This document shows, in pieces, positions 1,282 to 7,850 of a DNA stretch of 41,557 nt. This DNA is from Aurantiochytrium sp. KH105 (taxonomy: Eukaryota; Sar; Bigyra; Thraustochytrida; Thraustochytriidae), in contig BGKB01000293.1 of assembly GCA_003116975.1 (NCBI GenBank), positions 1 through 41,557 on the forward strand, in the 5' to 3' direction. How positions within the stretch are numbered: the stretch's first letter is position 1; each line of letters begins with the position of its first letter. Under the pieces are notes generated by a model. That model did not search any database. It saw only the letters and a list, made by a program, of their open reading frames with translations, and was not told the DNA's origin. The position numbers were made by a program, and so were the translations under genes.

Positions 1282-4200
1282 ATGATGAGATTCCGTGGCG
1301 ATGGTGCACTCCAAAAAGCAGTTGAGGCGATCAAAAACGGTGCGACAGAAATCGAGTACGTAAATGACAAATTCTGAGACCTCCCAAATTAAGAGCTGAC
1401 CAAATCTAACGCATGCACGCACGCACCCATGCGTGATGCGACGGAATGCAACCCTTGGCGCGATGTCGTTCATCTTGGCGTCTCATACTATGACGAGCGC
1501 AGTCTTCAGGAGAACAACATCGGCGACGCGGGCGCTGCGGCGCTGGCGAACGCACTCGTAAAGAACGAGTCGCTGCAGTCGCTAGAGTAAGTCATTGCGA
1601 CAAAGTGAAAGTGGGGCCAGAAGCCCAAGAAGCAACAAGAGCTGACCAAATCTAACGCATGCACGCACCCATGCGTGATGCGACGGAATGCAACCCTTGG
1701 CGCGATGTCGTTCATCTTGGCGTCTCATACTATGACGAGCGCAGTCTTGGGTGGAACGACATCGGCGCAGAGGGCGCTACGGCGCTGGCGAACGCACTCG
1801 TAAAGAACGAGTCGCTGCAGTCGCTAGAGTAAGTCATTGCGACAAAGTGAAAGTGGGGCCAGAAGCCCAAGAAGCAACAAGAGCTGACCAAATCTAACGC
1901 ATGCACGCACCCATGCGTGATGCGACGGAATGCAACCCTTGGCGCGATTTTGTTCATCTTGGCGTCTCATACTATGACGAACGCAGTCTTCAGTGGAACA
2001 AGATCGGCGACGAGGGCGCTACGGCGCTGGCGAACGCACTCGTAAAGAACGAGTCGCTGCAGTCGCTACAGTAAGTCATTGCGACAAAGTGAAAGTGGGG
2101 CCAGAAGCCCAAGAAGCAACAAGAGCTGACCAAATCTAACGCATGCACGCACCCATGCGTGATGCGACGGAATGCAACCCTTGGCGCGATTTTGTTCATC
2201 TTGGCGTCTCATACTATGACGAGCGCAGTCTTGGGGGGAACAACATCGGCGCAGAGGGCGCTACGGCGCTGGTGAACGCACTCGTAAAGAACAAGTCTTT
2301 GCAGTCGCTACAGTAAGTCATTGCGACAAAGTGAAAGTGGGGCCAGAAGCCCAAGAAGCAACAAGAGCTGACCAAATCTAACGCATGCACGCACCCATGC
2401 GTGATGCGACGGAATGCAACCCTTGGCGCGATTTTGTTCATCTTGGCGTCTCATACTATGACGAGCGCAGTCTTGGGGGGAACAACATCGGCGCAGAGGG
2501 CGCTACGGCGCTGGTGAACGCACTCGTAAAGAACAAGTCTTTGCAGTCGCTAGAGTAAGTCATTGCGACAAAGTGAAAGTGGGGCCAGAAGCCCAAGAAG
2601 CAACAAGAGCTGACCAAATCTAACGCATGCACGCACCCATGCGTGATGCGACGGAATGCAACCCTTGGCGCGATTTTGTTCATCTTGGCGTCTCATACTA
2701 TGACGAGCGCAGTCTTGGGGGGAACAACATCGGCGCAGAGGGCGCTACGGCGCTGGTGAACGCACTCGTAAAGAACAAGTCTTTGCAGTCGCTACAGTAA
2801 GTCATTGCGACAAAGTGAAAGTGGGGCCAGAAGCCCAAGAAGCAACAAGAGCTGACCAAATCTAACGCATGCACGCACCCATGCGTGATGCGACGGAATG
2901 CAACCCTTGGCGCGATTTTGTTCATCTTGGCGTCTCATACTATGACGAGCGCAGTCTTGGGCGGAACAACATCGGCGCAGAGGGCGCTACGGCGCTGGCG
3001 AACGCACTCGTAAAGAACGAGTCGCTGCAGACGCTAGAGTAAGTCATTGCGACAAAGTGACAGTGAGGCAAGAAGCCCAAGAAGAAAGCAACAAAAGCTG
3101 ACCAATTCTAACGCATGCACGCACGCATGATTTGCGACGGAATGCAACCCTTGGGCGCGATTTTGTTCATCTTGGCGTCTCATTTTATGACGAGCGCAGT
3201 CTTCAGGAGAACGAGATCGGCGCAGAGGGCGCTACGGCGCTGGCGAACGCACTTACAGAAAACAAAACATTGCAAACGCTCGAGTAAGTTCCAAAAAGAG
3301 CTCACAACCCGCATCAATTCCTTCTTCTGACACTTTATAATACAGCATCGACTACGACAATCCTGCTATCAAGGCCGCTCTCGAACGCAATCAAACTCTA
3401 TACGAACAGAGTCAGACGCCTCTTATGCAGGCGTGCAAGAATGGGGACATCTTGGAGGCAGAAAAGTTGGTCGTTGGCGGGACTCAAATCGACGCGCGGG
3501 ACACTTTAGGTCAGACAGCGCTGTTTCACGTTTGCGAAGCCGATGATGATGAGAACAATGGTCTTATTATAGCCAAGCTTCTATTCAAGCACAGCGCGAG
3601 TCTTTCGAGCGAGTCTCTCGGATTAAGGAAGGCAATTGCGAATGCTTCTTCAAAAGATCATACGAAGCTGTCCGCCTTCCTTCTTTTTGTACACTCGCTG
3701 CCTTTAACGCAGCTACAAACCAACACACTGCGAGAGATGGTTGTCAAGCTTTACGAGCAGGGCAGGCAGACATTGAAAAAGATTCGCTGTCTCACTTCCG
3801 CCCAGCTTGAGAAATTGGGGATAGCAAGCTTGCAAGACCGCCGTGTGTTGCTGCAAGTGTTTGTAGGTCCTGGGCAAACGAGCAAGCTCGAGATTCTTGC
3901 CGCGGAGCTTTCCAATGCCCGGGCAAAGCGCAGCGAGGAAAAGGCTGAACTCCATCATCCAATGCTGCGCGAGTTCTTTGCCGAGCAGCTCTCACGCGAA
4001 AACCCGATTGCCATTGTTGCAGACTTTGACTCGCAGCAAGCAACTGTATCTGGGAAAGAGCAAGCGCTCGCCACACTGCAGGAAGCCGTCAAGACAGACC
4101 CAGAAAAGATCCATGAACGGAACCAGATGCGGCGCGACCTTATCGCGTATATTCGAGAGACTCTCGCAAAGAGTTCGCAAATCAAGCTTCATGAGCTTGA

Positions 4201-4777
4201 AGATGATGCAAACGATGTGGCCGATACTTGTCGCAAGCTCTGGCGAGACATCCTGGGTGAACCGGCAAACGTCGACGATGCAGCGGAGCTAGTGACCTTT
4301 GGACAAGTACAGGAGACGACTCGAACCATGATGGAGGCCATCAAGGCGTGGGAGGCTCGCCATGACATAATTGCTTCACGCGAGCGCACCACTGCAGCTC
4401 TCAACGTACTAGAAGAGAGCACGAGGCGCCTTGGCATTCAGCCTACATTCTTCATGACGCTGACTTATCCCGAGAGATCCAAGGAGTTGGTATTGGAACT
4501 TCAGGACGTGCATCAAGCATTTATTGCGGAACTCAACGTCTTGAAGAAAGGCGATCCCATGGCAGATGCCCCGCTCGACAAAGTGCGATGTGCGCTGGCC
4601 TGTATGCTCTCCTTTTACACTCGCACAATTTCGAGCGTGGTCTCGCGCGTAAAGGACCTTGGGCATTTGCTCTCGCGCCTCACGTCTGGACTTACCGAGC
4701 CGAACACCGAGGGGGCAGAGCTTCTTCTCAAGAGTCTCAGAAACAAGACGAGAAAACGCAAGCATCTTGCTATGTAA
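1282..4777 (+). CDS. LRR - ankyrin - SAM-like protein, N-terminal part of a probable LRR-kinase-RBR fusion (10 exons)
   Basis: Exons read as 1282-1355, 1503-1586, 1745-1828, 1987-2070, 2229-2312, 2471-2554, 2713-2796, 2955-3038, 3200-3283 and 3346-4777, all with GT..AG introns. Each of the eight 84-bp exons encodes one 28-residue ribonuclease-inhibitor-type LRR of the form LxxNxIGxxGAxALxxAL, joined in the same codon phase (GA or CA | T). The long exon encodes two ankyrin-like repeats (about residues 269-335; motifs TPLMQACKNGD and GQTALFHVCE). A SAM-like helical segment follows (about 376-425; LTSAQLEKLGI), then a long helical region. To the TAA at 4775-4777 this is 725 residues. The same frame is open immediately afterwards and runs into a kinase domain, so I think this is the front half of one gene. 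LRR and ankyrin modules bind proteins or ligands; the actual partner is unknown. The start is the first of two adjacent ATGs and is the least certain part. Confidence 0.75.
1503..3283 (+). repeat. Tandem exon-intron array, 242-bp unit, eight LRR exons
   Basis: Exon starts at 1503, 1745, 1987, 2229, 2471, 2713 and 2955 are exactly 242 bp apart; the last copy (3200) is 245 bp on and more diverged. Each unit is an 84-bp exon plus a 158-bp intron (GTAAGT...GCGCAG). By eye the introns after the exons at 1987, 2229, 2471 and 2713 are identical, and those after 1503 and 1745 differ by only one or two bases. Exon differences cluster in the first 20 bases, that is at the exposed residues after the first leucine (QE, GW, QW, GG, GR). 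This indicates recent amplification or homogenisation by unequal crossing-over. Confidence 0.9.
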
Positions 4778-6493
4778 CTCGACGACGCCCGCGAGGATGC
4801 CAGAGGAGGTGACGAGGAAGCTCAAGCGAGAATCGCTGACCTGGAGCGAGAGCTTGCTCAAATCGGAAGTGTCGACAAACTGGACAGTGAGCTGCGCAAG
4901 AAGCGAGCTCGCTTGTTGCGTCATGCAGAAGAGCACTACCCTGAGCTGCTCCGGGATCAAGAGTGGCTGAAGCGCCTGGGTGTGGGCGACGACGGAGCAC
5001 CGCTGGAGCTGTCCAAGCTGGGCTTATGGCGGACGACGGCTCGTCGTGAGCACTTTGTCACTCTCAAGGAGCTTGCGTCCAAGCCTGGCAAGTCTGTGCA
5101 AAAAGTGCGTGGCCCCGATGGCCGCGATCTCGTGCTCAAGGCCTTTCATCTCGCCAGCGAGGCATGGAGCAGTCGATTTTACCATCAAGTTGCGGCCCTT
5201 GCCCAGATTCAATCGGCCTACATTGTCCAGATTCAGGGCGTGTTCATGCAGGATGCGCATCACGGCTGCATTTTAATGCCCTTTTACGAAGGCGGCGATC
5301 TTGCCACTTGGATCGTCGATAATCCCCATGCAGACTTGGCGACGCGCAGACGTATTGCTATCGGTCTTTTGAGCGGCCTGCACGATCTGCACTCGCGAGG
5401 CCTTGTGCATTGCGATATCAAGCCAGGAAACGTCTTTCTTGCAAAGGGTCTGTCACCGGTGCTTGGGGACTTTGACGGCGTCCAGAAGCACGACGTGACC
5501 ATGACGCAGCCTTTGCAGGCGACGATCACGTACATGGCGCCCGAGTTGCGCAACGGAAATGTCGACAAGGTCGAGTCTGCCGTGGATATGTTCTCCGTGG
5601 GCGTGGTTCTCGCGGAGCTCTTCGAGGACGCAGAGATATCCGACGCAACTCGCTCGCTCATTTCGGATCTGAAATCCGCAGACCCGAATCAGCGGCCGAC
5701 TGCACTCGCAGCCTTGCGTCACGAGGCGTTCCAGATCGAGCCTGTGAAGGTCGCCTCGTGTATAATTTGTCTTGACAATTGGCTCGTCAGTGAGGGCGTC
5801 CCTTGCGCCGACGGCCACTTCACGTGCAGAGAGTGCCTGAGCGAGTCAGTTGGCGCCGCTGCTCAGCCTCAGGCTCACGTTAACGTACGACGGGATGGAA
5901 GTATGCGATGTTTTTCATCAGACTGCGACCATTTCGTCCCTGGACGTTCCATTGCAGCCGCGGTTCCAGACGAGGACTTTGAAGCTCTACTCGGCATTGT
6001 ACGCGCGCACGTTGAGCGAGACGCTGCAGCCGAACAAGAGCGTCAGCTCCGTGATCGCGTTGACGCAGCGCTCCGCGAGCATGGGTTGGACCCGACGACA
6101 CAGAACCACATTCGTACCATCCAGAATGAGGTCCTCGCCATGTCGTGCCCGCGTTGCTCGACTGTCTTTGCTGACTTTGACGGCTGCTGCGCTCTCAAAT
6201 GTGCCGCTTGCCCATGCTACTTTTGCGCATGGTGCTTGCAGGACACAGGCGATGACTCAGATGCTTGCCATCAGCACGTTACAACATGCGCGTCAAAGCC
6301 TGCTGGCGAAGAAGACTCATTCTTTAGCGATTTTGCTGTTGTAAAGCAAGCTTGGGTTCGGCTTCGAGTGCAGCGTCTTCGTCGCTACATGGCAGAGAAA
6401 ATCGAAGACGCAGGCATACGTGCCAACGTCCAGGAGAGACTGCAACCTCTCCTCACGCCGGATATCCTCGGCGACAACTTTAGGTTTGAGTAG
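4778..6493 (+). CDS. Protein kinase - RING/RING2-like (RBR-type) E3, probable C-terminal part of the LRR gene
   Basis: This frame is the same as that of the preceding exon and opens directly after the TAA at 4775-4777. It first encodes a coiled coil (about 4830-4960). A kinase domain follows: VLKAF with the lysine at 5138, HCDIKPGN with the catalytic Asp at 5414, DFD in place of DFG at 5468, and YMAPEL. The region after position 5759 has a RING-like C-x2-C...C-x-H-x2-C-x2-C set. A helical linker follows, then a RING2-like module CPRC...DGCCALKC...FCAWC...CHQH; its Cys at 6185 aligns with the catalytic Cys of parkin-type RBR ligases. No in-frame ATG lies ahead of the kinase N-lobe, so it is unlikely to be a separate gene. 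An intron 4774-4887 (GTAACT..CTGAC..ACAG, 114 nt) or a 30-nt intron would remove the stop and keep frame. Otherwise the stop is a nonsense mutation. Predicted role: phosphorylation plus ubiquitin transfer, probably cytosolic. Confidence 0.75.
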   Translation, partial: LDDAREDARGGDEEAQARIADLERELAQIGSVDKLDSELRKKRARLLRHAEEHYPELLRDQEWLKRLGVGDDGAPLELSKLGLWRTTARREHFVTLKELASKPGKSVQKVRGPDGRDLVLKAFHLASEAWSSRFYHQVAALAQIQSAYIVQIQGVFMQDAHHGCILMPFYEGGDLATWIVDNPHADLATRRRIAIGLLSGLHDLHSRGLVHCDIKPGNVFLAKGLSPVLGDFDGVQKHDVTMTQPLQATITYMAPELRNGNVDKVESAVDMFSVGVVLAELFEDAEISDATRSLISDLKSADPNQRPTALAALRHEAFQIEPVKVASCIICLDNWLVSEGVPCADGHFTCRECLSESVGAAAQPQAHVNVRRDGSMRCFSSDCDHFVPGRSIAAAVPDEDFEALLGIVRAHVERDAAAEQERQLRDRVDAALREHGLDPTTQNHIRTIQNEVLAMSCPRCSTVFADFDGCCALKCAACPCYFCAWCLQDTGDDSDACHQHVTTCASKPAGEEDSFFSDFAVVKQAWVRLRVQRLRRYMAEKIEDAGIRANVQERLQPLLTPDILGDNFRFE

Positions 6494-7077
6494 TTTATGC
6501 TGCGAGAATGTTTGAAATGTCATTGCCTTGATAGAATGTTTGCCGGTGACCTGAGGTGCTCGTCGAGGCCAAAGTCCCTGCTGCGGCTTTCCCTTCGCCT
6601 CGTTTGCTCCTGGCTCACAAGGTCGAGTCGTCGGACTGCGTAAGATGGCCTTTTCTGCTCACGAGCCTCCATGAGCCGCAGCTCGTCAAACACACTCACG
6701 TTTTGCATCACCGCTCCTCTTGCAACTCGCTCGCGTCGCCGGAACCGCGTCCGAAAACACGCCTTCGCGCCTTCGCGTATTCATTGTCCTCATCATCTTC
6801 CTCTTGTCGTCCTTGAACTTGTCAAGCTCTCGCTCATGTCCTTGTCGCTCTCCCTTCAGAGCTGCCTTTCGCGGACGATCACGTGTGACAGTCCGCCTGC
6901 TTATCGCGGACGGTGGCTTCTAGGTCACGCGTGATCATCGGATCGTTTTCAAGGCTGGATTTTCTTCTCGGGGCAGCCAGGTGCAAACCCACTTCGATAG
7001 CTCTTGCGAGCTCGGCAGGCTCGCCGCACGCGAAGACCGGGCGCACCTCGGTGGCAACGTGGCGGCGGAAATCTGAC
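6494..7077. other. Spacer between the kinase-RBR gene and its partial duplicate
   Basis: No forward gene is visible here. The minus strand carries an open stretch ending near 6879 (frame containing FACGEPAELARAIEVGLHL) and, further on, a charged lysine/arginine-rich stretch around 6740-6840. These could be remnants of a reversed gene. I recognise no family and find no confident splice sites. Confidence 0.35.
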
Positions 7078-7692
7078 GGGCACGTGCAAATCCTTGAAAA
7101 CGGTAGCCTGAAATGCATCACGCCTGACTGCGATCTCCATATCTCTGAACGTACCATTGCAGCTGCGGTACCGGAAAATGTCTACAAGGTGCTTCAAAAG
7201 ATTGTGAGCGAGCACAAGGAGCGCGAGTTGGCGCGAGAGCACGAGCGTGATGTCCAGCGGCGCGTCGATGAAGCACTTCGCGATCATGGACTCGATCCGG
7301 AAACCCAGAATCATCTTCGCAAGATCCAGAATGAGGTCTTGACCATGTCGTGCCCCCGTTGCTCGGCAGCCTTTGCCGATTTTGATGGGTGTTGTGCGCT
7401 CAAGTGTAGCAACAACTGCTCATGCTATTTCTGTGCATGGTGTCTCAAAGATACCGGGAACAGCAGCCAAGGCTGTCATCAGCACGTTGCCAATTGCCCG
7501 TCAAAACGGAGCGCAGATTTATACTATGCCAACTTCGGGACGGTGCAAGAGGCCTGAACCAAAGTCCGGGCGCAGCGCCTCCGTCAGTACATGACGAAGC
7601 GCATCAAGAGCAGTGACAAGCGCAAAAAGGTCCTGAAAAAGCTGCAGCCGCTGCTCACGCCGGACGTTATTGGGGCTCGTTTTAGACTTTAA
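7078..7692 (+). pseudogene. Truncated, stop-interrupted duplicate of the kinase-RBR C-terminus
   Basis: From about 7078 the frame matches the tail of the upstream gene: the C-x4-C segment, the helical linker with HGLDPETQNHL, and the RING2-like module MSCPRC...DGCCALKC...FCAWC...CHQH. Roughly three quarters of residues are identical by eye over the linker and zinc module. Neither the kinase nor the first RING is present. A TGA at 7555-7557 stands where the intact gene has the Trp codon of QAWVRLR. After it the frame stays homologous to the true C-terminus (LQPLLTPD) up to the TAA at 7690-7692. The pattern is a decayed 5'-truncated tandem duplicate. It could still be expressed as a short RING2-only protein if an upstream start exists; none is convincing. 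Confidence 0.75.
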
Positions 7693-7776: not shown

Positions 7777-7780
7777 AAAT

Positions 7781-7850
7781 TCCATGTCCGGGAATCGAAC
7801 CCGGGGGTTGACGGTGAGAGCGTCAGATGTTACCATTACACCAACACGGA
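7781..7850 (-). tRNA. tRNA-Glu (anticodon CTC)
   Basis: The reverse complement folds as a 70-nt cloverleaf. The acceptor arms TCCGTGT and ACATGGA pair with one G-U. The anticodon stem TGACG/CGTCA encloses the loop CTCTCAC, giving anticodon CTC. The T arm is CCGGG-TTCGATT-CCCGG. The D arm contains AATGGTAA and the B box is GGTTCGATTCC. The CTC anticodon reads GAG, hence glutamate. No intron is present and CCA is not encoded, as expected for a nuclear eukaryotic gene. Poly-T terminators follow. Confidence 0.93.

Follow-up and report, generated by a model that had tools for sequence, protein, structure and literature searches.

Genes that encode each leucine-rich repeat (LRR) in an exon of its own are known from brown algae, whose LRR-ROCO genes are the closest precedent for the gene described here, although the effectors differ. 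According to the sections of the report used here (PMC11378527), each LRR of the brown-algal genes occupies one phase-2 exon, the exons are shuffled, and sites on the concave face of the repeats are positively selected. The gene that we analysed lies in another stramenopile, the thraustochytrid Aurantiochytrium sp. KH105 (assembly GCA_003116975.1, 76 Mb in 367 contigs), on contig BGKB01000293.1, which was taken whole (41,557 nt, referred to as the window); all coordinates are positions in it. The family to which this gene belongs shares these exon features, and it has hypervariable LRR residues where the concave face is expected, but its exons are 84 nt rather than 72 bp long and lead into an ankyrin-kinase-RING1-Rcat part rather than Roc-COR. 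The KH105 genome also contains an LRR-Roc-COR-TIR gene (L030).

Two further systems are comparable, as far as the consulted passages of the two reports go. LRR genes of Tetrahymena (PMC6564038) have uniform phase-2 LRR exons in tandem arrays, a subtelomeric concentration, ectopic recombination and some kinase fusions, but their exons are 90 bp long, they number thousands, and the passages mention no ligase tail. Fungal NLRs (PMC4986451) have repeats under positive selection, signs of concerted evolution and varied effectors; the window gene, in contrast, has neither NACHT nor NB-ARC (neither half of its last exon matches them in Pfam, searched up to E 1), and has LRRs instead of WD/ANK/TPR repeats.

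The effector part has its own relatives. RBR E3 ligases (RNF216, Parkin, Cullin-9, Ariadne) have in common with the family tail a RING1 and an Rcat/RING2 module with a Cys in the catalytic position; the family tail, however, has no IBR and is fused behind a kinase. PINK1 and Parkin, a kinase and an RBR-type ligase, cooperate as two proteins rather than as one chain; that ubiquitin could be a kinase substrate in the family as well is a proposal, and one distant relative (P0066) also has a ubiquitin-like domain. LRRK1 and LRRK2 unite LRR, ankyrin and kinase in one chain as the family does, but the family lacks Roc-COR and WD40 and has the ligase tail in their place; Roc-COR is absent by Pfam from the last exon of the window. 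In the literature on kinase-RBR fusions and on LRR or immune families of thraustochytrids and other protists, the architecture was not found among the matches listed, judged by title and the start of the abstract. LRR-exon arrays with concave-face diversity are already known, from the brown-algal sections cited above; it is the effector combination that did not appear among the matches listed.

The window gene is real and spliced in frame. Exon 1, eight LRR exons and a long last exon join through GT...CAG borders with the frame kept, as the sequence-only reading of this DNA had proposed. The spliced LRR part matches LRR_6 (Pfam, E 1.1e-59) and consists of 28-residue repeats of the RI/NLR type, with PDB matches that include chains of ribonuclease inhibitor and of NLRPs. 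The domain E-values and conservation rule out chance, and so does the LRR-exon acceptor pattern, which gave 561 genome hits (at most 2 mismatches) versus 1 for a reversed control. Of the 1298 codons in the spliced frame, only 726 and 1298 are stops. The first of these is an in-frame TAA ahead of the kinase, so that the window copy as assembled has no continuous chain. The single uninterrupted frame claimed by the sequence-only reading, whose reasoning omits the stop, therefore fails for this copy; the sequence being right, its product would be an LRR-ankyrin-helical protein of 725 aa that lacks the enzymes.

The stop is not family-wide. We fetched 20 paralogs out of 60 genome regions among the matches listed (giving, with the window, the 21 sequences referred to below), and all 20 carry a sense codon at the TAA position (Glu in 15, Asp in 5). 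When the genome was searched with a paralog's whole last exon (50 rows), 31 of the 33 near-full-length last exons, the query itself included, were stop-free, near-full-length meaning a match that starts at residue 13 or earlier and ends at residue 1045 or later of 1049; the other two were the window, with one stop, and a copy on C122, with four. Because of these 31 open exons and the 20 sense codons, a single chain with the order LRR - ankyrin - helical - kinase - RING1 - Rcat is, by its sequence, a genuine architecture of the family: the one-chain claim holds for the gene family and breaks down for the window copy. The kinase-ligase half matched at least 77 genome rows, a lower bound that includes the window itself and fragments, and 18 of them have internal stops.

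The TAA itself is what would be expected if two genes were present, one for an LRR-ankyrin protein that stops at 4777 and another, further on, for a kinase-ligase protein, and separate transcripts had been named earlier as the outcome that would speak against one chain. However, after the TAA the spliced frame offers no Met before residue 883, which lies 36 residues beyond the catalytic-Lys position 847 (the absence of an in-frame ATG ahead of the N-lobe had been noted correctly), and the near-full-length last exons are open in 31 of 33 cases, which makes two transcripts unlikely. The protein P0058 of the thraustochytrid Hondaea fermentalgiana also spans the stop position. We regard two genes as highly improbable. 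A mini-intron at the stop was rejected, the stretch being coding and ungapped in 18 aligned paralogs, and an alternative genetic code is unneeded, 31 of 33 copies having no internal stops.

What we see in the window copy is probably either a recent nonsense allele or an assembly error. The copy also has a mosaic last exon, as can be seen from diagnostic sites, those at which seven type-A paralogs share one base and two type-B paralogs share a different one. Over residues 1-640 the window has the A base at 439 of 458 such sites, and over residues 641-900 the B base at 69 of 82; the change from one to the other falls between residues 629 and 633, and neither type is clear in residues 901-1049 (A 11, B 8 and other 2 of 21 sites). 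Such a mosaic could be either recombination between paralogs or an assembly join. The sharp switch would suit a sequence error or an assembly chimera of two paralogs, the true allele being intact; so would the stop being the only lesion of a gene whose splice sites are all in order, and the fact that some family contigs end within LRR units. Yet the B-type part is identical to neither sampled B copy (the better of L024 and L026 reaches 89-95% per 50-codon block over residues 651-900), and stops occur in other copies too, in 18 of the 77 rows above; we hold an error or chimera to be possible but doubtful. The breakpoint was rejected as the origin of the stop, which lies ~450 bases before it.

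It is also conceivable that the truncated protein is useful, as a decoy or regulator that has the LRRs and ankyrin repeats but neither kinase nor ligase. The part upstream of the stop is intact, and nonsense-mediated decay tends to be weak for stops in a last exon, such as this one. There is, however, no sign of selection for a truncated form, and the part after the stop still looks conserved (median ratio of non-synonymous to synonymous substitution, dN/dS, of window-versus-paralog pairs 0.16 for the kinase and 0.16 for Rcat), although the B-type origin of this part weakens the point; a useful truncated product seems quite unlikely to us. The dN/dS computed from changes unique to the window lineage (0.34 before the stop, 0.14 after) was set aside as evidence, since many of these changes, owing to the B-type segment, are inherited rather than new.

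The closest named proteins, among the matches listed, are from Hondaea. The kinase-ligase half is 76% identical to one over its full length and 79% identical over 81% of the length, and the N-terminal half, for which the search gave 4 proteins, is 85% identical over 73%. P0012 has LRR, ankyrin and kinase by Pfam, with sequence reaching RING1. A RING1-Rcat search from the distant relative P0018 gave 14 proteins including P0018, 11 of them with a kinase domain; P0066, mentioned above, is among them, and P0074 has an LRR. From these results, kinase-RING1-Rcat is widespread and the LRR-ankyrin front is present in at least two thraustochytrids. By eye, the Hondaea models P0012 and P0059 start within an intron-type stretch open in the LRR frame; the 3' part of the LRR introns of the window (1587-3199) is likewise open in frame with the LRRs.

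We think it fairly probable that these genes, of which this genome has dozens, form a large thraustochytrid family of probably cytosolic LRR-ankyrin-kinase-RING1-Rcat receptors. As proposed earlier, ankyrin repeats and a kinase lie in the long last exon; the kinase of the window has VLK, HCD and DFD (Table 1). The kinase Lys and the DFD Asp are present in 21 of 21 sequences and HCD in 16, HCN standing there in 5; the HCD catalytic loop presumably makes this a non-RD type kinase. The HCN paralogs (L018-L022) retain the Rcat Cys, and look as if the kinase had turned pseudokinase while the predicted ligase stayed. The possibly SAM-like segment gave Pfam matches to SAM_1, SAM_2 and SAM_Ribosomal_mS41 at E 0.044-0.053, below cut-offs, and the fold-match list, filled by ankyrin, contained no match for it.

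The window tail alone is below Pfam cut-offs (zf-RING_2 E 0.016), and its RING1 and RING2-like modules are backed by the family profile and by fold. Cys/His spacing of RING1 is invariant in the family alignment, its last Cys nearly so. The Rcat module is matched by the family profile to Cullin-9 residues 2221-2298 (E 3.2e-4) and aligns to Cullin-9 and Parkin; the Cys in the catalytic position is present in 14 of 14 aligned sequences, the window spacing being C-x2-C-x9-C-x4-C. No IBR was found between RING1 and RING2: the 26 proteins parsed show the RING1 pair and scattered Cys only, with at most 7 Cys in the interval (P0073, RING1 pair included). We considered the second module as an IBR and rejected it, as IBR_1 was below the Pfam cut-off (E 0.0021 to 0.28) and the profile favours RING2 over the IBR stretch in one Parkin chain. 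The tail is RBR-like (RING1-Rcat without IBR), not a canonical RBR, and is a predicted ligase; the earlier assignment is borne out for RING1 and Rcat and not for the part between them.

Table 1. Features of the KH105 locus (positions in the window)
Feature	Position	Strand	Basis or remarks
Exon 1, LRR N-cap, 74 nt, donor GTACGT	1282..1355	+	Same-donor exon 1 in 11/21 sequences
Eight LRR exons, 84 nt each, phase 2	1503..3283	+	Exon ends 1586, 1828, 2070, 2312, 2554, 2796, 3038, 3283; intervening introns 158-161 nt
Last exon up to stop, end of 725-aa reading frame	3346..4777	+	
Ankyrin repeats	3398..3703	+	Ank_2 E 1.6e-8 (Pfam), ankyrin fold matches
Small helical segment, possibly SAM-like	3695..3868	+	Helices in AlphaFold model
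Long helical region, interrupted by stop	3869..4963	+	AlphaFold helices, pre-stop part only
In-frame TAA	4775..4777	+	Ends chain at 725 aa, ahead of kinase
Protein kinase domain	5021..5743	+	Pkinase E 2.1e-28 (Pfam); Lys (VLK) 5138-5140, HCD Asp 5414-5416, DFD Asp 5468-5470
Mosaic breakpoint, switch from paralog type A to type B	5228..5242	+	Diagnostic sites
RING1, C3HC4 spacing	5759..5926	+	Family profile to RNF216 E 2.3e-6
Helical linker without Cys, place where IBR would lie	5927..6145	+	Predicted model, alignment
RING2/Rcat-like module; Cys 6185-6187 in catalytic position	6146..6289	+	Family profile
C-terminal helices	6302..6490	+	Predicted model; within RNF216 match of model residues 114-239
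Degraded second copy of RING1-end/Rcat part; stop 7555-7557	7060..7690	+	Limits by eye

The exon 1 count in Table 1 comprises the window and 10 of the 20 loci that were fetched; several of those 20 are incomplete. The degraded second copy includes 207 nt at 71% identity to 5996-6202, and by eye resembles Hondaea P0008. A tRNA-Glu (CTC) on the minus strand (7780-7850) adjoins the family copy, and long frames at 9117-41009 resemble by eye housekeeping genes, such as those for glutamate dehydrogenase, 5-aminolevulinate synthase, a cyclic-nucleotide-gated channel and HisHF.

We analysed the diversity of the LRR exons with a pattern (AG, 84 nt, GT and 9 of 12 LRR positions) that itself required the 84-nt length. 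It found 137 LRR exons in 18 of the 21 sequences, up to 17 per gene; none was found in L017 and L028, which are cut at a contig end, or in L023, with ~6 kb of upstream sequence. Family arrays consist of uniform phase-2 exons with one LRR each, and 110 of 115 internal repeats are distinct. Variation is concentrated at few positions, with an entropy of 3.5 bits at residues 2 and 3, 2.4 at residue 5 and 2.0 at residue 8, positions that we take from the LRR consensus to be the concave face; the exon-junction residue varies too. At residues 2 and 3 the codon positions have a heterozygosity of 0.54-0.72, against a mean of 0.20 at four-fold sites (0 to 0.61). Conservation between copies is good in the LRR introns, with a mean heterozygosity of 0.128, and in units 2-7 of the window 3 of 158 intron sites are variable versus 13 of 84 exon sites. 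Non-synonymous change at the variable codons, picked after the entropy had been seen, is 2.26 times core synonymous change (1.93-2.68). On the best reading, the diversity arose as symmetric 84-nt LRR exons were duplicated and shuffled and as copies recombined with one another.

The same genome contains LRR arrays with other effectors. We fetched four such arrays outside the family (L029-L032). In L029 (C16) and L032 (C9) the array is followed by a kinase-TIR exon (TIR_2 E 2.0e-7 and 6.8e-8), and in L030 (C149) by a Roc-COR-TIR exon (TIR_2 E 1.1e-15); L031 (C72) has a like Roc-type exon after its array, judged by sequence, Pfam having been run on L030 only. Genome rows matching the kinase-TIR exon number 64 and those matching the Roc-COR-TIR exon 100, rows being pieces rather than genes. 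These sister TIR architectures, as predicted from their domains, are the strongest argument for a recognition repertoire. The earlier guess of immunity or allorecognition gains from them and from the hypervariable LRR residues, the function itself being what we infer.

The placement of the copies can be read differently. Twenty of the 21 sampled copies, which are the highest-scoring rows, are no more than 25 kb away from a contig end, where 10.75 would be expected, and upstream flanks are common to copies over up to ~3.9 kb. Not every copy is terminal: one on C15 lies at 342 kb of a contig of at least 897 kb. The fetched loci showed no repeats of the TTAGGG or TTTAGGG type. The placement fits subtelomeric spread, but also assembly breaks in repeats. 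Together with the kinase-RING-Rcat core that occurs elsewhere without LRR, placement and common flanks would also suit a family that is not a recognition system, in which LRR and ankyrin serve as general intracellular-signalling scaffolds and the copy number reflects neutral duplication. The concentration of variation at few LRR positions and the TIR-bearing sisters speak against such a family, and we consider it rather unlikely.

As the best reading, we take the family to be one arm of a repertoire of shuffled LRR receptors for immunity or for telling self from non-self, in which recognition would lead to phosphorylation and ubiquitylation. Several observations weigh against this. HCN replaces HCD in 5 of 20 paralogs, and the kinase has no recognisable glycine-rich loop. 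The tail lacks the IBR, the defining part of an RBR; the Rcat part of the profile adds only 0.2 and -4.8 bits on RNF216 chains, and TM-scores to the RNF216 complex are 0.30. Several Hondaea family models begin at ankyrin or later, without LRR. In the LRRs, single four-fold sites reach a heterozygosity of 0.61, and the non-synonymous/synonymous ratio at the four variable codons, again chosen post-entropy, is 1.07 (bootstrap 0.86-1.22), an interval because of which the ratio alone shows no positive selection.

In the proposed receptor, the exon-encoded LRR solenoid with its hypervariable face would be the sensor, and the ankyrin and helical regions a scaffold or a site of partner binding. A ligand on the LRRs may release or cluster the kinase, which would phosphorylate the ligase, ubiquitin or a bound target; RING1 would then take E2~ubiquitin and pass ubiquitin to the Rcat Cys. 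It is possible, although we put this forward only tentatively, that such genes are a previously undescribed single-chain class, in which a hypervariable LRR part leads to a kinase and an IBR-less RBR-like ligase controlled by it, as if PINK1 and Parkin were one polypeptide, and which is one arm of a combinatorial LRR-exon repertoire with kinase-TIR and Roc-COR-TIR arms.

To our knowledge, sensing, phosphorylation and ubiquitylation are divided among several proteins in animal and plant pathways. If intact copies act as predicted, one protein of this family would combine all three, and would offer a natural IBR-less RBR-like ligase from which to learn what the IBR is for. A unicellular marine stramenopile would then have a large recombining recognition repertoire, in which protist innate immunity or self/non-self recognition would become testable.

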